This document shows, in pieces, positions 29,880 to 38,354 of a stretch of 64,000 nucleotides of DNA. Source of the stretch: Zavarzinia marina (GTDB lineage: Bacteria; Pseudomonadota; Alphaproteobacteria; Zavarziniales; Zavarziniaceae); contig NZ_JAKGSB010000001.1 in NCBI RefSeq assembly GCF_021568905.1, positions 992,001-1,056,000 of the forward strand, written 5' to 3'. Numbering within the stretch: the stretch's first letter is position 1; each line of letters begins with the position of its first letter. A program made the translations under genes and the position numbers. The notes below the pieces were generated by a model. That model saw only the letters and a list, made by a program, of their open reading frames with translations. It did not search any database and was not told where the DNA came from.

Positions 29880-30365
29880 CTAGCGCCGCCGCAGGAAAAA
29901 TCCGGCCAGGCCGTCGACCGAGACGAGACCGCCGCCCCGCACCAGCAGAACGAGCAGGGCACCGCCCCAGAGGAAGAATTCGACCGCGTTGAAATTGATG
30001 CCGTCGCCGGTGAAGGGCACGACGAGCTGGATCATGGCGGTAACGCCGAGCAGGATCAGGGCGCCGAAGCGCGTGCCGAGTCCGAGGAACAGCAGCCAGG
30101 CGCCCCCGGCCTCCGCCAGCGTGCCGGCCCAGGCGGCGAGTTCCGGCGGCAGCAGGGGCACGCGATAGATTTCCTGGAACAGGAAGACGGCGCTGTCGCT
30201 GATGCCGAAGCCGTCGAAGCGGGTGCTGGCGCTCTTCCAGAAGACCAGCCCGATGCCGAGGCGGAGCCCGAGCAGGCCCAGGGGTTCGAGGATCTGCGCC
30301 AGCCGGCGCAAAGGTTTCGCCAGGGCGGCCGGCGGCGCGCCCGAAAGGCTCTGGCTGAGGGTCAT
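29880..30365 (-). CDS. DoxX family membrane protein (BufD-like)
   Basis: A 161-residue DoxX/DoxD protein with four TM segments (LGLLGLRLGIGLVFWKSAST, TLAEAGGAWLLFLGLGTRFG, LILLGVTAMIQLVVPF and a C-terminal helix). DoxX genes are the usual fourth member of bufferin operons (gigD in Caulobacter). The ATG overlaps the bufC stop (ATGA), so the two are coupled. It probably acts in the inner membrane; its exact role there is unknown. Confidence 0.85.
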   Translation of the reverse strand: MTLSQSLSGAPPAALAKPLRRLAQILEPLGLLGLRLGIGLVFWKSASTRFDGFGISDSAVFLFQEIYRVPLLPPELAAWAGTLAEAGGAWLLFLGLGTRFGALILLGVTAMIQLVVPFTGDGINFNAVEFFLWGGALLVLLVRGGGLVSVDGLAGFFLRRR

Positions 30366-31159
30366 GGCAAGTCTCCGAGGGATTGAACGTCGTCGTGAAG
30401 GCAAAGCAGGCCGAGGCCGAGAGGACGCGCCAGGATCGCACCCGGATCGGCGTCGGCTTCGGCATCGAGGGCGGCATCGAGCGCCGGCCCCAGGGCGCCC
30501 GCTGCCGGCGCCAGGGCCCGAAGGAAGGCGGCATCGCCGACGCCGAGGTCGGCGGCCCGGATCGCGCCGGCGCCGTCGCGCCAGACCAACAGGCGCCGGG
30601 ACTCGGCGATGGTCCGGCCGGGGGTGCCGTCGCGCCCGGCCTGATTGATCTCCCAGATGTGATCGACGGCATGGGCCGTCTCGACGATCGAGACGCCGGG
30701 CAGCAGGGCGAGGCGCAGCGCGTCGATCGCATCCGGCCCCATGGAAGCGAGGCGCATGGCCTCGAAGGGGGCCACGGCCGGCGCCAGGGCCGCCCGGTGG
30801 CGCGCCCATTCGAATGCCGCGACTTCCGCCACCATGGGCAGGGCGGCGAGTTCCGGCAGGCGGGCCAGGAAACCGGGAAAGCGCGCGCCGAACAGCGCGA
30901 GACGCGGGTCGTCCGGCGGGCAGTCGGCGATGAAGCGGGTCGCCAGGGCGGCAAATCCGGCCTCCCCGACGAGGCAGGCGACCACCGGGAAATGCAGCGC
31001 CAAAGCCGCGCTCAAGGTGGTGCGCACGTGATTGCGGTGGAGGGACAGGCGGTTCGCCGCCGGCACGCCGCCACCGCCGATCAGGGCCAGCAGCGCCGGA
31101 TCGGCCGTGCCGCCCCGCAGGCTGGCGGCGAAACGGGCCTGGAAATCAGCCAGCAGCAC
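30362..31159 (-). CDS. bufC: DUF2063 protein BufC/HvfC-like (bufferin maturation partner)
   Basis: A 265-residue protein of the HvfC/BufC family. The DUF2063 N-terminal domain ([49 protein letters not shown]) is the RiPP-recognition partner of MNIO enzymes. The C-terminal half is a helical/strand region ending in an acidic Ala-rich part. It overlaps bufB by 14 bases and doxX by 4. It is expected to bind the BufA precursor and present it to BufB. Confidence 0.88.
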
Positions 31160-32009
31160 GGCGCGCCTCGCGGGTGTCGGATGAGAGGAAGTGCCCGATG
31201 CGCGCCGCCTCCGCCATCAGGACGTCGAGCGCCGGCAGGTCGCTGTCCCATTCGATCAGCACCGGCGCTTCGGGGCACTTCGGGCGCATATGTCCGAGCA
31301 GGGCCAGCGCCGCATCCCCCACGGGGCTGCCGTGATCGTCGATCAGCATGGTGGCGGCGCCGAGCTCGACCACGCTGTGCCCGGCGAGATGAATCTCCCC
31401 GACCGCCGCGAGGGGCATGGCCGCGAGCTCGGCCCGGGCATCGAGCCCCAGGTTGCCGGCGCTGACCACGATATTGTTGAGATCCAGCAGCAGGCCGCAG
31501 CCGGTGCGGGCGACGAGGGCCGCGAGGAACGCCCCCTCGCCCATCTCGTCCTCCGTGAAATTCATGTAGGTCGAGGGATTCTCGACCAGGATCGGGCGGC
31601 GCAGCCGCGTCTGCACCCGATCGACGTTGCGGGCGACGACATCCAGCGCCTCGAAGGTCCGGGGCAGCGGCAGGAGGTCGTTCCAATAGTACCCGCCCTC
31701 CACCGACCAGGCGAGATGTTCCGACACCAGGGCCGGCTCCAGCCGGTCCACCAGCGTGGCGAGACGCGCCAGATGGGCGTCGTCGATCCCTGCGGCGGAG
31801 CCCAGCGAAAGACCGACGCCATGGACCGAGACGGGTCGATCCCGCCGTACCCTCTCGATCAGGACGGCATCGGGACCGTGAAGCATGTGGTTCTCGGCGT
31901 GGATTTCGACCCAGGCCGGGTCCGCCTCGCCGCCCGCGACGGCGGAGAGATGCGGCGCGCGCAGGCCGATGCCGACGGCGCCCGGCGGGATCGACCTGCG
32001 CGCGATCAC
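31146..32009 (-). CDS. bufB: DUF692 multinuclear non-heme iron oxidase (BufB/MbnB-like)
   Basis: A 287-residue TIM-barrel oxidase of the MNIO family, which modifies cysteines of RiPP precursors. Metal-ligand motifs are visible in order: [47 protein letters not shown] and IEWDSD. It starts at GTG 32009, 4 bases after the bufA stop, with GAGGG inside the bufA end. In Caulobacter the homologue converts bufferin cysteines to thiooxazoles that bind copper. Confidence 0.93.
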
Positions 32010-32013
32010 GGGA

Positions 32014-32277
32014 TCAGCCCTCGCTGGAGGTCAGGGAGCCGCCGACCAGCTTCTCGCAGGTGCCGGCGGGCAGGAACAGCCAGGCGTCCTTCTGGCCGTC
32101 CATGGTCGAGGTGCCGGCGCAGGACGAGCTGGCGGTCTGGCAGTCGTTCTGGCCCGCCTTGGCGACGCCGTAGCACTTCTCGTTGTCGGCGGCATGGGCA
32201 CCGCCCGCGACGAGGCCGGCGGCGGCGACGGTGGCGGCGAACAGGGTGGCGGTGGCGGTCCGGGACAGGATGGACAT
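32014..32277 (-). CDS. bufA: DUF2282 bufferin precursor (copper-binding RiPP)
   Basis: An 87-residue precursor. A signal peptide ([20 protein letters not shown], cleavage near AHAA) is followed by a short mature peptide with four cysteines in [20 protein letters not shown] and [10 protein letters not shown], the DUF2282 hallmark. AAGGAG lies 7 bases before ATG 32277. Bufferins are modified by BufB/BufC in the cytoplasm and exported, where they sequester copper. Upstream is an ECF-type promoter element. The divergent gene is an ECF sigma factor. Confidence 0.93.
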
Positions 32278-32362
32278 GAAGATCTCCTTGGCTGTGGCGG
32301 GCCCCGTTTCGGTCGGCCCTTCGTGGAACGAGAGGCCGTCGACGGCCGGTCTCGTTGGAAGG

Positions 32363-32387
32363 TTCGGCGCCGCCCCGCGAAAGTTAC
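32363..32387 (-). promoter_or_regulatory. ECF (SigF-type) promoter upstream of bufA
   Basis: On the minus strand GTAACT (32387-32382) and CGAA (32366-32363) are separated by 15 bases. If the -35 is scored as GTAAC, the spacing becomes 16. The reported Caulobacter SigF consensus is GTAAC(C)-N16-CGAA. The element lies 85 bases upstream of bufA. No second copy faces the sigma gene. Confidence 0.65.
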
Positions 32388-32469
32388 ACACGCCGCCGTC
32401 CGGCATTGTTTTCTTGTAAATTCCCGGGCGAGGCGGCACGGTTTGCCGGCTCACGGAGTTTGGTGAATC

Positions 32470-33057
32470 ATGACCGACGAGGCCGATCAGCGCCGGGCGG
32501 CCGATCAGGCCCGCGAACTGGCGAACCTGATGGCGGCGGCGCAGGACGGCGACCGCCGCGCCTATGCGGCGCTCCTCCAGGCCGTGACCCCCTATCTCAG
32601 GGCACAGGCCCGGCGCTATTTCCGCAACACACAGGACGTCGAGGACGTGGTACAGGAAATCCTGCTGACCGTTCATCGTGTCCGCCAGACCTATGATCCC
32701 GAGCGCCCGTTCATGCCGTGGCTGACCGCGATCGCCCGCCGCCGCGTGGTCGATCGCCTGCGCGGCAAGGGCCGCCGCGAAACGCGCGAAATCGTCATTC
32801 CGCCGGATCATGAAACTTTCACCGAGGTCGCGGCGAACATTGAACCAGAGGCACCCGATCACAGCGCGCTGCATGCCGCCGTGGCGGCGCTTCCGCCGGG
32901 CCAGCGCCTGGCGGTCGAATTGCTGAAGTTCCAGGATCTCTCTCTCAAGGAGGCGTCGGAACGCAGCGGCATGTCGGTGGGTTCGCTGAAGGTGGCGGCG
33001 CACCGCGCCTACAAGAGCTTGCGCGCCGCGCTGTCGGGCGGCGGGAATGATGCGTGA
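32470..33057 (+). CDS. ECF RNA polymerase sigma factor (SigF/ECF16-like)
   Basis: A 195-residue group IV sigma factor. Region 2 contains DVEDVVQEILLTVHRVRQTY and region 4 the HTH LSLKEASERSGMSVGSLKVA. Between the two is a short linker with DHETFTEVAAN. It is divergent from bufA and followed, with an 11-base overlap, by a DUF1109 anti-sigma factor. This arrangement matches SigF-NrsF of Caulobacter, which controls the buf-type operons under metal stress. Confidence 0.93.
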   Translation: MTDEADQRRAADQARELANLMAAAQDGDRRAYAALLQAVTPYLRAQARRYFRNTQDVEDVVQEILLTVHRVRQTYDPERPFMPWLTAIARRRVVDRLRGKGRRETREIVIPPDHETFTEVAANIEPEAPDHSALHAAVAALPPGQRLAVELLKFQDLSLKEASERSGMSVGSLKVAAHRAYKSLRAALSGGGNDA

Positions 33058-33745
33058 CGAGGTTGAGAGAACGAAGGTGGCTGCGGATACGAACCGGTTG
33101 ATCGACACTCTGGTGAGCGAAGCGCGCCCCGTGCGGCGGCTGCGGCCGCCCCTGGTGCGCGCCGCGTTCTGGCTGGCGGTCTCCGTCGCGGTCATCGCCG
33201 CCATCGCCTATCTGCATGCCGTCAGGGAAGAGCACGGCCTGCGCCACCTGTTCGGCCAGTTCGCCGATATCGGCTTCACCCTGCAATGGCTGGCCAGCCT
33301 GCTCACCGGCGTGACGGCCATCGTCGCCGCCTTCGAGCTGGCCCTGCCCGACCGTTCGCGCGCCTGGCGCCTGCTGCCGCTGCCGGCCGTCGTGTTCTGG
33401 TTCCTTTCCATCGGCTATGGCTGCCTGACCGACTGGGTGGAGCGCGGACCGGACGGTTTCGTCGCCGGCCACAGTTTCGAATGCTTCGGCGTGATCGTCG
33501 GCACCAGCGTGCCGCTCGGCCTGTTCCTGGCCTGGATGCTGCGTTTCGCCGGCGCCGCCTGGCCGATGGAGACGATCACGGCGGGCGCGCTCGGCACCGC
33601 CGCGCTCTCGGCCGCCGGCCTCAGCCTCTACCACGATCTCGACGCCTCGCTGATGATCCTGATCTGGCACGGCGGCACCACCGCCCTTGTCGTCGGCGTC
33701 AGCCGCATGGTCGGCCGGCGGATGATGCGCCGCCGGCACGCCTGA
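33047..33745 (+). CDS. nrsF: NrsF-family (DUF1109) anti-sigma factor
   Basis: A 232-residue inner-membrane anti-sigma factor with a cytoplasmic N-terminus (residues 1-38) and six hydrophobic segments. Two cysteines sit near the periplasmic side, C126 in IGYGCLTDW and C146 in SFECFG. In Caulobacter NrsF, conserved cysteines are needed for metal-dependent release of the sigma factor; whether these are the same positions was not checked. The gene overlaps the sigma gene by 11 bases. Confidence 0.88.
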
Positions 33746-33830: not shown

Positions 33831-34352
33831 ATGATCTACGAACTGGGCAACAAGAAGGTCGTGCGCGAGGAAGGATCCTGGATCGCGCCCGGCGCCGTCG
33901 TGATCGGCGACGTCGTCCTGAAACAGAACGCCAGCATCTGGTTCAATGCCGTCATCCGGGGCGACAACGATCCCATCGTGATCGGCGAGAACAGCAACAT
34001 CCAGGACGGCTCCGTCCTCCACACCGACGACGGCGTGCCCATGGTCGTCGGCTCCCATGTCACCGTCGGCCACAAGGTCATGCTGCATGGCTGCATCATC
34101 GGCGACAATACGCTGATCGGCATCAATTCTGTGATCCTGAACCGCGCGAAGATCGGCAGGAACTGCATCATCGGCGCCAACAGCCTGATCCCCGAGGGCA
34201 AGGAGATCCCCGGCGGCTCCCTGGTGGTCGGCAGCCCCGGGCGCGTGGTGCGCCAGCTTTCGGAGGCGCAGGCCCAGATGCTGACCCTCCAGGCGCTGCA
34301 CTACGTCGAGAACGCCAAACGCTACGCCCGCGACCTGAAGTCCGCCGAATAG
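33831..34352 (+). CDS. Gamma carbonic anhydrase family protein
   Basis: A 173-residue left-handed beta-helix protein with hexapeptide repeats ([35 protein letters not shown]). The putative metal-binding histidines lie in [13 protein letters not shown] and nearby, as in gamma-CA (YrdA/CaiE-type) proteins. CO2 hydration is assumed, but many YrdA-like members are poorly tested. It starts 85 bases after the anti-sigma gene with only a weak GGGG element, so it may be transcribed separately. Confidence 0.88.
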
Positions 34353-34436
34353 ACGATTTCATCCGCCCGTTTCGGTGTCATCCCTTCAAAGCCGGCAGGC
34401 GATCCCCAGATAGGGTTGGCAACAGCGGAGATGACG

Positions 34437-35069
34437 ATGTCCGACCGTCCCCAGATCTTCGGCATTCCCACCAGCACCTTCTGCTGGACCATCCGCCTGG
34501 TCTGCGCCGAGAAGGGCCAGGCCCACGATTTCGTCGAGATGATCCCGGGCGGGGTGCTGGACGGCGTGCGCCACCCCTTCGCCCGGGTGCCGGTGCTGCG
34601 CTTTCGGGGTGTCACGGTCTACGAATCGCCGGCGATCGCGCGTTTCCTCGACCGCGAGCTGGAGGGACCGGCACTCCAGCCCCGCGACAGCCTGGCATTG
34701 GCGCGGATGGACCAGTGGATCAGCGCCACCGCCGATTATCTCTATGATTCCATGATCGAGGGCGTGGTGTCGGAGCGCCTGATCGCCCCCCTCGACGGGC
34801 GCGAGCCGGACGAGGCGGTGGTCGCCGAACAGGCCGAGATCATGCACGGGCAATTGGGCGTCGTCGACGAGATGCTCTGCGCCGAACGCTATCTGGCCGG
34901 GCCCGACATCACCCTGGCCGACCTCTTCCTCGCGCCCGTGATCTATTGGGTCGACAAGACGCCCGAGGGCGCGAGCGCCCTCGACGCCTATCCGACGCTG
35001 CGCCGCTGGTTCCGCGGCATCGCGGAACGCCCGGCCTTTCGCGAGACGACGCCCCTGGTCACGGTCTGA
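34437..35069 (+). CDS. Glutathione S-transferase family protein
   Basis: A 210-residue thioredoxin-fold plus helical-domain GST. The N-terminus has IFGIPTSTFCWTIRLVC (a candidate catalytic Ser/Cys in STFCW) and the cis-Pro region RVPVLRF, with YESPAIARFL following. Helical C-domain: ITLADLFLAPVIYW. I start at ATG 34437 because GGAG at 34427-34430 is correctly spaced. The substrate is unknown. Confidence 0.88.
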   Translation: MSDRPQIFGIPTSTFCWTIRLVCAEKGQAHDFVEMIPGGVLDGVRHPFARVPVLRFRGVTVYESPAIARFLDRELEGPALQPRDSLALARMDQWISATADYLYDSMIEGVVSERLIAPLDGREPDEAVVAEQAEIMHGQLGVVDEMLCAERYLAGPDITLADLFLAPVIYWVDKTPEGASALDAYPTLRRWFRGIAERPAFRETTPLVTV

Positions 35070-35090
35070 GACCCCACGGCCCTGCGCGAC

Positions 35091-35106
35091 AGGGGCGCCC
35101 CTTTTT
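35091..35106 (+). terminator. Short hairpin plus T tract after the GST gene
   Basis: AGGG-GCGC-CCCT (35091-35102) followed by TTTT, ending at the mscL stop codon on the opposite strand. The stem is short, so confidence is low. Confidence 0.4.
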
Positions 35107-35531
35107 CAGCTTTCCTTCGACTTCAGGACGTCGCGGATCTCGGCCAGCAGGCTTTCGGTCGGAGTCGGGCCCGGCGGCGGCGGGGGCGGCGCGGCTTCCT
35201 GCTTCTTCATCATGCTGTTCACCCCCTTCACCAGAAGGAAGACGGCGAAGGCGACGATGACGAACTGGATCGCGACATTGATGAAATTGCCGTAGGAGAT
35301 GACGGCGGCGCCGGCCTCCTGGGCTGCCGCCAGGGACTCATAGTCCGTATCGGTCAGATTGATGTAGAGCTCCGAGAAATCGACACCGCCGACCAGCAGG
35401 CCGATGGGCGGCATGATCACGTCGTTCACGACCGACGTCACGATCTTGCCGAAGGCGGCGCCGATGATCACGCCGACGGCGAGATCGATCACGTTGCCCC
35501 GCATGATGAATGTCTTGAATTCCTTCAGCAT
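35106..35531 (-). CDS. mscL: Large-conductance mechanosensitive channel
   Basis: A 141-residue MscL that releases osmolytes under membrane tension. The N-terminus is [20 protein letters not shown] with TM1 ([18 protein letters not shown]), then [19 protein letters not shown]2 is [20 protein letters not shown], followed by a Pro-rich linker (PPPPPPG) and cytoplasmic helix. The ATG 35531 has AGGAGAGAG upstream; a longer frame to 35804 is a shadow. Confidence 0.96.
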
Positions 35532-35619
35532 CGAATGCTCTCTCCTGCTTGCCGGCCCCTTCGCCGCTTCCCCTGCATTAGAATGCAACCCGGACGCAAG
35601 GCAATGAATTTGTCGACCG

Positions 35620-36087
35620 TCAAATCTTTCCACCGGGCGGCGCCAGCCACTTTCGCATGTAGATCCGGTCGAAGCCGCGCTCCACGCGCCGGTCGAACAC
35701 CCGATAGCCGAGCCGCTCGTAGAACGCGACATTCTCGACCATGCGGGCGTTGGTATAGAGGCTGATGGCGCCGAGGCCGGCCGCTCGGGCCGCGCCCTCG
35801 GCATGAGCGATCAGGGCCCTGCCGATGCCCCGGCCCGCCGCCTCGGGCCTTACCGCGACATTGTCGAGCAGCATTTCGCCGTCCTTGCGCACCAGCACCA
35901 GAAGCCCGGCGACCCCGCTCGCCAGGACGGCCACGGTCACCCGACCGGCGGCGATGGCGGCGGCGTAATCGTCGGCCATCGGCCCCGGCTCGCGCCCGAT
36001 GCGGGCGACCCAGGGGCGATAGGCGGCCTCGACACAGGCTTCGATCGCCGCCAGATCGCCGGCCTCGGCCGGCCGGAGGACGGTCAT
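35620..36087 (-). CDS. GNAT family N-acetyltransferase
   Basis: A 155-residue acetyltransferase. The acetyl-CoA P-loop is in [20 protein letters not shown] (motif A), followed by [19 protein letters not shown] (motif B). The N-terminus is [19 protein letters not shown]. Its start overlaps the stop of an ArsC-like gene (36084-36087), so the two form an operon. The acceptor is unknown. Confidence 0.9.
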
Positions 36088-36437
36088 TCGCGGCCCAGCG
36101 TCGCCGCGTAGGTCTCGGGCTTGAAGCCCGCGAGATAGCGGCCGTCGAGATCGAGCAGCGGGCGCTTGATCATGCTCGGTTGTTCGACCATCAGGGCGAT
36201 CGCCCGGTCGCGGTCGAGATCGGCGCGCGCCGCTTCCGGCAGCTTGCGGAAGGTGGTGCCGGCGCGGTTCAGCACCTTGTCCCAGCCGAGCGCGTCGCAC
36301 CAGCGCCCCAGGCTTTCGGCATCGATGCCCGCCTGCTTGTAGTCGTGGAAGACATAGTCGATGCTGCGCGCCTCGAGCCACTGGCGGGCCTTCTTGATCG
36401 TGTCGCAATTCTTGATGCCGTACATGGTGATCGTCAT
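36084..36437 (-). CDS. ArsC/Spx-like family protein (YffB-type)
   Basis: A 117-residue ArsC-fold protein with MYGIKNCDTIKKARQWLEA at the start, giving one redox Cys (KNCDT). The C-terminal part has FRKLPEAAR and the IKRPLLDLDGRYLAGF segment typical of the YffB/ArsC-like group. Whether it reduces arsenate or another thiol target is unknown. ATG 36437; the gene runs into the GNAT gene. Confidence 0.88.
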   Translation of the reverse strand: MTITMYGIKNCDTIKKARQWLEARSIDYVFHDYKQAGIDAESLGRWCDALGWDKVLNRAGTTFRKLPEAARADLDRDRAIALMVEQPSMIKRPLLDLDGRYLAGFKPETYAATLGRE

Positions 36438-36503
36438 CGCCCGTCCCTTTCCTGCTCTGGCGCTTGATGCCACGGCGGGGCCGCTTGCGCTAGATTTTGC
36501 GCC

Positions 36504-38354
36504 ATGACGCTGCAACTCGCCCTCGTGCTCGGCCTCCTTGGCGCCGCCGTGGTCATGTTCGCGCTGAACCGGCCGCGCATGGACGTGGTGGCGCTGATCA
36601 TGATCATCGCCCTGCCCTTCACCGGCGCCGTCTCGACGGCCGAGGCGCTGTCGGGTTTCGCCGACCGCAACGTGATCCTGATCGCCGCCCTCTTCGTGAT
36701 CGGCGAAGCCCTGGTGCGCACCGGTGTCGCCCAGCGCCTGGGGGACGCCCTGATCCGCCGCGCCGGCGCCAGCGAGATCCGGCTGATCGCGCTGCTGATG
36801 ATCTTCGTTTCGCTGCTCGGGGCGATCATGAGTTCGACCGGCGTCGTCGCCCTGTTCATTCCCGTCGTGCTGCGCGTCGCCCGCGGCGCCGGCCTCGCGC
36901 CCAGCCGCCTGATGATGCCGCTGTCGATCGCGGCGCTGAGCAGCGGCATGACCACATTGGTGGCGACGCCGCCCAATCTGATCGTTCACGGCGAATTGCT
37001 GCGCCACGGCCTCGAAGGCTTCGGCTTCTTCGGCTTCTCCCCCTTCGGCCTGCCGGTCCTGGCGCTGTCGATCGTCTATGTCCTTCTCGTGCGGCGCTGG
37101 CTGACGCTTCGCCCGGCCGGCGCACCGGCGCCCAGCCGGGGCCCGGGTTTCGCCGAATGGATCGACGATTACGCGCTGGCCGCGCGGGAGCATCGGCTGC
37201 GCGTCGGCCCCGCCTCGCCGCTCGCCGGGCAGGCGCTGCGGGCGCTGCGGGCGCTGGCGCTCAGGGCGAGCGAAGGCGCCAACGTGATCGCCGTCGAACG
37301 CGGCATCGGCTTCGGCCGGCACCTGTTGCGTCCCCATGCGGACCTGGTGCTGCACGCCGGCGACATCCTGCTGGTCGACGTTTTCGAACCCGCCTTCGAC
37401 CTGGACGAGACCATGGCCCGCCTCGGCCTCGAGCCCCTGCCCCTCAGCGGGCGCTATTTCGCCGAGAGCCGCCACGAGATCGGCCTCGCCGAAGTGATGA
37501 TTCCCGCCACCTCCAACCTGATCGGCCAGACCCTGGCGCAGTCGCGCCTGCGCAGCGAACACGATCTGGTCGCGATCGGGCTGCGCAAGGGCCGCAAGGC
37601 CGAGACCACGAACATCGCCAGCCGCAAGCTCGACACCGGCGATACCCTGCTGGTCACGGGGCCGTGGCAGGCGATCCGCAAGCTCGGCGACGATCGCCGC
37701 CACCTGATGGTGATCGCGCTGGCGGCGGAAGGCGAGGACGTTGCGCCGGCGGCGGAGCGCGCCCCCTTCGCCCTCGGCGTGCTGGCGCTGGTGGTCGGGG
37801 CGATGGTCCTCGGCCTCATTCCCAATGTCGCCGCCGCCCTGATCGGCTGCCTGCTGATGGGCCTCTTCGGCTGCATCGACATGAAGGGCGCCTATCGTTC
37901 CATCCATTGGCAGAGCCTGGTGCTGATCGTCGGCATGCTGCCGTTCTCGATGGCGCTGGAACGCAGCGGCGGCCTCGCGCTCGCGGCCGAGGGTTTCATT
38001 TCGATCTTCGGCCAGGGCGAGCCCCGGCTGGCGCTGGCCGGGCTCTTCGTGCTGACGGCGGGCTGCAGCCTCTTCATGTCGAACACGGCGACGGCGGTCC
38101 TGCTGGCGCCGGTCGCCATCGCCGTCGCGGGCGACATGGGCCTGTCGCCCTATCCCTTCGCCATGACCGTCGCGCTCGCCGCCTCCGCCGCCTATGTGAC
38201 GCCGGTCTCGTCCCCGGTGAATGCCCTGGTACTCGGCCCCGGCGACTACCGCTTCGGCGATTTCGTGCGCATCGGCCTGCCCCTGGCGGTGCTGGTGCTG
38301 GCGGTCACCGTTTTCCTGGTGCCACTGATCCTGCCGTTCAGCCCCGGCGGATGA
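36504..38354 (+). CDS. SLC13/ArsB-type permease with internal TrkA-C domains
   Basis: A 616-residue transporter. Twelve or so hydrophobic segments flank two TrkA-C (RCK_C) domains at about residues 215-295 and 320-400 (LVAIGLRKGRKAETTNIASR lies in the second). The citrate-melibiose-like motifs are ALLMIFVSLLGAIMSSTGVV and SNTATAVLLAPVAIAVAG. Such proteins take up dicarboxylates, sulfate or other anions. It ends 17 bases inside the convergent phosphatase gene. Confidence 0.88.
   Translation: MTLQLALVLGLLGAAVVMFALNRPRMDVVALIMIIALPFTGAVSTAEALSGFADRNVILIAALFVIGEALVRTGVAQRLGDALIRRAGASEIRLIALLMIFVSLLGAIMSSTGVVALFIPVVLRVARGAGLAPSRLMMPLSIAALSSGMTTLVATPPNLIVHGELLRHGLEGFGFFGFSPFGLPVLALSIVYVLLVRRWLTLRPAGAPAPSRGPGFAEWIDDYALAAREHRLRVGPASPLAGQALRALRALALRASEGANVIAVERGIGFGRHLLRPHADLVLHAGDILLVDVFEPAFDLDETMARLGLEPLPLSGRYFAESRHEIGLAEVMIPATSNLIGQTLAQSRLRSEHDLVAIGLRKGRKAETTNIASRKLDTGDTLLVTGPWQAIRKLGDDRRHLMVIALAAEGEDVAPAAERAPFALGVLALVVGAMVLGLIPNVAAALIGCLLMGLFGCIDMKGAYRSIHWQSLVLIVGMLPFSMALERSGGLALAAEGFISIFGQGEPRLALAGLFVLTAGCSLFMSNTATAVLLAPVAIAVAGDMGLSPYPFAMTVALAASAAYVTPVSSPVNALVLGPGDYRFGDFVRIGLPLAVLVLAVTVFLVPLILPFSPGG

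Follow-up and report, generated by a model that had tools for sequence, protein, structure and literature searches.

Copper-buffering bufferins are a described kind of ribosomally synthesized and post-translationally modified peptide (RiPP) system. The closest described counterpart of the locus examined here, positions 29880-33745 of a 64,000-nucleotide stretch of Zavarzinia marina DNA (the window), is the CC3252-CC3257 (CCNA_03363-03366) block of Caulobacter vibrioides/crescentus, which contains the same six families in the same order, a divergent sigF-nrsF pair, and the same promoter class (PMC3511200, PMC8224329; statements on described systems, here and below, follow passages of the papers cited). 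In Caulobacter, the bufferin 1 promoter is SigF-dependent and the SigF motif is GTAACC-N16-CGAA (PMC3511200). A second bufferin-type operon and MsrPQ belong to the SigF regulon too (PMC3511200, PMC8224329); the bufferins and MsrPQ are copper-induced in the conditions tested, and a sigF::Tn5 mutant is copper-sensitive (PMC8224329). Buf1, as published, is a DUF2282 protein with four cysteines, of which the central ones are modified and the outer two disulfide-bonded, and sigma/NrsF genes occur in Buf1 clusters (PMC12452194). We conclude, with a probability of about 0.87, that the window locus is a bufferin-1 biosynthetic operon controlled by a divergent SigF/NrsF pair, for which a mechanism is proposed below. 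By analogy with these precedents, its product is very probably a thiooxazole peptide that binds copper in the periplasm. The operon itself is a known kind of system and essentially ordinary; it differs from that of Caulobacter in the NrsF cysteine pair (126/146 instead of 131/181) and in a promoter spacer that is one base shorter.

Other described systems share parts of this arrangement. Sinorhizobium meliloti RpoE7/EcfR7 and SMb20527-SMb20530 likewise comprise a pair of the extracytoplasmic function (ECF) group ECF16 and, in divergent orientation, an operon of four genes that include DUF692 and DUF2063 ones; there, unlike in the window, the motif precedes both units, the sigma operon included, and the inducer was not found in the work described (PMC6180224). 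Bradyrhizobium EcfF/OsrA and Brucella BcrS/AbcS also combine an ECF16 sigma factor with a DUF1109 anti-sigma factor and control methionine-sulfoxide reductases (PMC3420878, PMC8315932), including peptide methionine-sulfoxide reductases in Bradyrhizobium (PMC3420878). Among the regulon genes named in passages of those papers, several of which encode hypothetical proteins, there is no bufferin operon. Their anti-sigma cysteines, unlike those of the window protein, lie at 129/179, both in OsrA, whose C179S variant no longer responds to H2O2 and whose C129S variant no longer represses (PMC3420878), and in the Brucella protein (PMC8315932); the conserved cysteines of Caulobacter NrsF are 131/181 (PMC3511200). 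The HvfABC-DoxX (oxazolin) system of Haemophilus influenzae shares an MNIO, a DUF2063 protein, DoxX, a precursor with a Sec signal, and co-regulation with methionine-sulfoxide repair (PMC7907618, PMC12452194), but differs from the window in its EGKCG-type precursor, its sigma factor, and its small anti-sigma factor. We provisionally place the window pair in ECF16 on the basis of NrsF and the promoter motif rather than of an ECF classification of the sigma factor itself.

Translation and Pfam searches agree on six genes in the block, at the positions and with the identities given by an initial annotation of this DNA. On the minus strand, bufA (32014..32277) encodes an 87-aa Buf1 precursor (DUF2282, 1.7e-25) with four cysteines, at positions 35, 46, 53, and 74; bufB (31146..32009, GTG start) encodes an MNIO enzyme (DUF692; MbnB_TglH_ChrH, 2.2e-90); bufC (30362..31159, GTG start) encodes a full-length, 265-aa DUF2063 partner protein of PME type 1 (DUF2063, 9.9e-19); and doxX (29880..30365) encodes the membrane protein of the bufferin operon, which has no cysteine (DoxX, 7e-13). 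Divergent from these on the plus strand are sigF (32470..33057), encoding an ECF sigma factor (Sigma70_r2, 9.3e-16; r4_2, 1.3e-11), and nrsF (33047..33745), encoding a DUF1109/NrsF anti-sigma factor with six predicted transmembrane (TM) segments (NrsF, 1.3e-20). The matches of all six proteins exceed the curated cut-off of each family and are far above chance. The genes had also been described as stop-to-start coupled, which is nearly exact: bufB/bufC, bufC/doxX, and sigF/nrsF overlap by 14, 4, and 11 bases, but bufA and bufB are separated by 4 bases. The divergent bufA and sigF starts have 192 bases between them. This six-gene arrangement is kept in all six Zavarzinia genomes (that of the window and five others, the contigs of L003 and L005 among them). 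The possibility of a chance operon was rejected on the domain E-values and this conservation. The same annotation emphasized that regulator and operon stand together in one 3.9-kb block; all the genes are indeed present, but the sigma factor probably serves targets outside the block too.

Direct observation covers which genes are present, the ligand residues and cysteines, and the promoter motif with its conservation. Against MNIO_BufB, the NCBIfam equivalog for bufferin maturases, BufB reaches 329.7 bits (cut-off 310), and it falls below the cut-offs of the MbnB, ChrH, ApyH, and HvfB models; the closest named relatives that we found are Zavarzinia records (68–72% identity), and the solved structural relatives are 3BWW, 8HCI, and 7TCR. 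The initial annotation had staked its reading on the metal ligands of BufB, and a ligand-type residue is present at all nine expected MNIO iron-ligand positions, as assigned by motif and alignment to 3BWW rather than by structure. These residues (H63, H98, E143, D176, N179, H207, D224, H226, and E253) are 97–100% conserved in an alignment of 34 bufferin-type MNIOs, comprising the window protein, that of the second operon of the same genome, and those of survey loci with an open frame shorter than 420 aa, longer frames being excluded. By motif, N179, D224, and H226 correspond to HvfB N175, D242, and H244, each of which is essential (PMC13419390). All nine match the predicted ligands of PbsC in order and spacing, with His98 in the place of PbsC Asp133 and Asn179 in that of PbsC His216 (PMC12257519). 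The N-terminus of BufA is hydrophobic and ends in ...AHA-A, and we place a predicted Sec-type cleavage after ...AHA by eye. Methanobactin, chryseobasin, aminopyruvatide, and oxazolin (HvfA) cluster types were rejected because the precursor is a DUF2282 protein and the MbnB, ChrH, ApyH, and HvfB scores are under their cut-offs. A role of the DUF2063 protein as a DNA-binding regulator was also discarded, its published role being that of MNIO partner (PMC12452194).

The predicted SigF-type promoter, GTAAC-N16-CGAA, lies on the minus strand at 32363..32387, 85 bases 5' of bufA; spacers of 16 and 17 bases both occur in related loci. Of 38 SigF/NrsF-linked loci, 32 have the exact motif, with 15–17 bases allowed between GTAAC and CGAA, upstream of the MNIO gene. 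Two controls at the same loci, the pattern reversed and each half reversed, each gave 0/38. On the strand opposite the buf genes, the exact motif occurs at 9 of the 38. For autoregulation of sigF, the sigF strand of the six Zavarzinia intergenic regions contains no relaxed GTAA match, so that, in a difference from Caulobacter, no matching motif stands on the sigF side. Across the window, the one-mismatch motif (17-base form) has 8 matches, a number reached by 11 of 100 shuffles and thus not above chance. The loose motif, counted over whole genomes, also stays below its reversed control, and the argument is one of position and gene context only.

In the window's own genome, the GTAACYT form of the motif has six matches, against three in the reversed control, and these directly precede buf1, buf2, msrP, msrQ, msrA, and a DUF1223 gene. 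Gene identities were assigned by NCBIfam or Pfam; MsrQ, whose NCBIfam score of 120.4 bits misses the cut-off of 130, is above cut-off only for Pfam Ferric_reduct. The YT rule was derived from this genome and then examined in the five other Zavarzinia genomes. With the window genome included, the motif lies 5' of buf1, buf2 (as GTAACTC in one), msrQ, and msrA in 6/6 genomes, and 5' of msrP in the five that are testable (as GTAACAT in one), the contig of the sixth starting 49 bases before the gene. The msrQ frame extends upstream without a stop in at least two genomes, and its start codon is our own reading in three of the six; a longer reading would place the motif inside the gene. At L013, L069, L079, L088, L095, and L105, the predicted SigF promoter ends about 9–11 bases before the likely msrQ start, which suggests a nearly leaderless msrQ transcript if those starts are correct.

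Genus-wide, GTAACYT has 52 matches, against 20 in the reversed control. We fetched 48 of them, the other four resembling a dispersed repeat; 30 belong to the regulon genes just named and 18 have no assigned gene. The motif alone thus does not define the regulon; its recurrence before the same genes does. On this comparative evidence, SigF probably runs a regulon of two bufferins and methionine-sulfoxide repair in Zavarzinia. The pattern is mostly known from Caulobacter and Bradyrhizobium, with msrA and the DUF1223 gene also carrying the motif in Zavarzinia as compared with Caulobacter; DUF1223 was not found as a regulon member in the passages of the SigF/ECF16 papers cited.

The genome contains two MNIO genes and one DUF2282 gene. 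The second MNIO gene (L001) is preceded by an 83-aa precursor that scores 93 bits against the NCBIfam BufA2 model (cut-off 60) and is followed by a DUF2063 gene, and there are two MNIOs in each of the six Zavarzinia genomes. Two loci in two Zavarzinia genomes, L070 (G003:C3:29200-32200) and L081 (G005:C132:15800-18800), have the gene of an additional Buf2-type precursor with a DUF1223 gene (CSSC motif) after it, and carry the SigF motif. These precursors have no MNIO of their own, both MNIOs of each genome being encoded elsewhere, and are candidates for modification in trans. At L256 (1329-2315; Rhizobium sp. T1473 plasmid), a gene for a 328-aa hypothetical protein lies between the DUF692 and DNA-binding-domain (DUF2063-type) genes of a bufferin operon.

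We propose the following mechanism, whose chemistry, export, copper binding, and release step are modeled on the precedents named above. Copper and/or oxidant stress on thiols and methionine would alter the periplasmic face of NrsF via the C126/C146 pair. SigF would then be released and, acting at the GTAAC-N16-CGAA promoter, transcribe bufABC-doxX. BufB, the MNIO, would work in the cytoplasm with its DUF2063 partner BufC to oxidize BufA, with the central C46 and C53 most likely becoming 5-thiooxazoles and C35 and C74 forming a disulfide. Sec would export the product, which would chelate copper in the periplasm. SigF probably also turns on the second bufferin (Buf2) operon and MsrA, MsrP, and MsrQ, which are encoded elsewhere in the genome.

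Several results weigh against the bufferin-1 reading and its regulation by SigF. BufA has no NCBIfam name above cut-off, reaching 32.8 bits with the BufA2 model (cut-off 60); BufC shows weak HvfC-family similarity under the HvfC NCBIfam cut-off, and the HvfX-family similarity of DoxX is also under its cut-off. The loose motif GTAACN{16,17}CGAA occurs 16 times in the window's own genome, against 40 times for the reversed control; the open reading frame output, the one thing inspected for the ten matches other than the six above, shows none of the regulon genes. Caulobacter sigF is dispensable for Cr or Cd resistance (PMC3511200), and S. meliloti rpoE7 and its target promoter are unresponsive to H2O2, Cd, and chromate (PMC6180224). 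Finally, the release step is not simply transferable from Bradyrhizobium, as the cysteine of its H2O2 response is absent from the window NrsF.

The initial annotation predicted a thiol-modified copper-binding peptide made under metal stress. The ligands and maturase score of BufB and the copper precedent in Caulobacter support this prediction, except that an oxidant trigger is no less plausible than a metal one. The stimulus may include oxidants because the same promoter motif precedes methionine-sulfoxide reductase genes (msrA, msrQ, and msrP) in Zavarzinia, and the locus could primarily serve a response to periplasmic oxidants (reactive chlorine or peroxide), in which the bufferin keeps copper from driving thiol and methionine oxidation and copper is one of several inducers. 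Other regulators speak for this: Brucella BcrS/AbcS, of ECF16, responds to HOCl (PMC8315932), Bradyrhizobium EcfF/OsrA responds to H2O2 and singlet oxygen (PMC3420878), and H. influenzae RpoE2, which has a different, small anti-sigma factor, controls msrAB together with the DoxX/MNIO operon upon exposure to HOCl (PMC7907618). The Caulobacter SigF targets, in contrast, are induced by Cr and Cd and at most twofold by H2O2, tert-butyl hydroperoxide (tBOOH), paraquat, or diamide (PMC3511200), and are induced by Cu (PMC8224329). We regard a primarily oxidant-directed function as a serious possibility, if one somewhat below an even chance.

The window protein is an NrsF by its sequence, yet its cysteines are not those of the described type. 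It contains only C126 and C146, of which C146 corresponds to the published first cysteine; the published second cysteine is absent. We searched 387 genomes of the class, 81 of which have a match over the Pfam cut-off, and combined the 88 resulting loci with the window, two other known loci, L006, and L007; 92 of these 93 were usable (L247 gave none). The first cysteine is present in 91/92 proteins. As to the second cysteine, 44 proteins have it at the published position, 35 at the window position, 7 three columns past the first (CxxC), and 6 at none of these sites; the two main positions never occur together (0/92). L007 and L241, both among the 35 window-type proteins, contain an additional cysteine that is one or two columns away from the published position. 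Shuffling gives a mean co-occurrence of 16.7, a contrast on which we do not rely because the types cluster in the tree, leaving too few independent pairs for a paired test. In a quick-method tree of 91 rows, from which the four cysteine columns and L246 (which lacks the first cysteine) were omitted, the cysteine types group with seven changes in all, many forks being weakly supported. The difference is therefore one between subfamilies that reflects few independent events, not 92 independent observations.

Averaged hydropathy and charge predict six TM segments with both ends inside, which places the cysteine positions at or in periplasmic loops 3 and 5; C126 and C146, with 19 residues between them, map to the predicted TM3-TM4 loop or its edge. 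An AlphaFold model from a six-sequence alignment has a mean pLDDT of 71.2 (45.7–55.5 for the other four models); C126 falls within its helix 112-138, C146 lies close to where helix 143-168 begins, and nothing in the model shows that the two are near each other.

MNIO genes are nearby at 12 of the 35 window-type, 21 of the 44 published-type, 4 of the 7 CxxC, and 1 of the 6 other loci, some of which are cut by contig ends. At the 11 window-type loci with a motif, a pyrimidine always follows GTAAC and the spacer is 16 bases in six and 17 in five; at the 16 published-type loci with a motif, a purine follows in 14 and the spacer is 17 in all. As related loci share ancestry, this preference is a correlation and not a test. 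Window-type cysteines are also found in four plasmid proteins, from Burkholderia contaminans, Nitrobacter hamburgensis, Paraburkholderia phenoliruptrix, and Rhizobium sp., of 20 records found; all but that of B. contaminans adjoin a complete bufferin operon. In the B. contaminans stretch (L253, 2571-3954), which has no annotated bufferin operon, nrsF is beside molybdopterin oxidoreductase and cytochrome b genes, possibly MsrP/MsrQ. On N. hamburgensis plasmid 3 (L254, 5037-5639), where the bufferin operon is divergent, a gene for a TlpA-like thiol-disulfide protein directly follows nrsF, which fits a thiol-based sensing step.

We tentatively propose, at odds just short of even, that NrsF has at least two cysteine architectures. 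In that of the window, the stress cysteine of loop 5 would be replaced by one at the TM3 end of loop 3, making the switch a C-x19-C pair within a single periplasmic loop; the CxxC form would be a third, rarer type. Nearly all members retain the cysteine at loop 3/TM4, and its partner is in most cases at just one of three positions, which would suggest that a periplasm-facing pair of cysteines is conserved rather than any fixed position. The window type would have its own sigma-promoter preference (a pyrimidine after GTAAC and a 16- or 17-base spacer). We found no description of the alternative arrangement in passages and sections of the open-access literature, a search largely outside subscription papers, figures, and supplements and so weak evidence of novelty; the pair is a possible new variant.

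NrsF might instead sense copper directly, with C126 and C146 as metal ligands in place of disulfide formation. Their shared location at the predicted TM3-TM4 loop would suit such a site, as would a regulon whose output is a copper chelator, but the poor fold model gives no cysteine distances, and bufferin genes are linked to all three NrsF cysteine types, so that type does not predict a copper role. We consider direct sensing unlikely. That the cluster is a relic or its product an unmodified peptide is highly improbable: all window genes are intact, the ligand residues are kept, and the six genes and promoter motif are conserved in 6/6 genomes of the genus.

Past nrsF (33831-38354), the window encodes a hexapeptide-repeat protein, which we take to be gamma-carbonic-anhydrase-like, a glutathione transferase, MscL, and a CitMHS/TrkA_C transporter, all seemingly unrelated to the bufferin locus.

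The probable SigF/NrsF-controlled bufferin-1 operon described here extends to Zavarzinia a RiPP system for copper buffering that is already known, and yields a regulatory prediction for the genus, namely that two bufferins and methionine-sulfoxide repair form one SigF regulon. The occurrence of more than one cysteine arrangement in the anti-sigma sensor is relevant to the way in which NrsF proteins detect metal or oxidant. If the proposed reading of these cysteine architectures is true, it would make the mode of NrsF inactivation testable.

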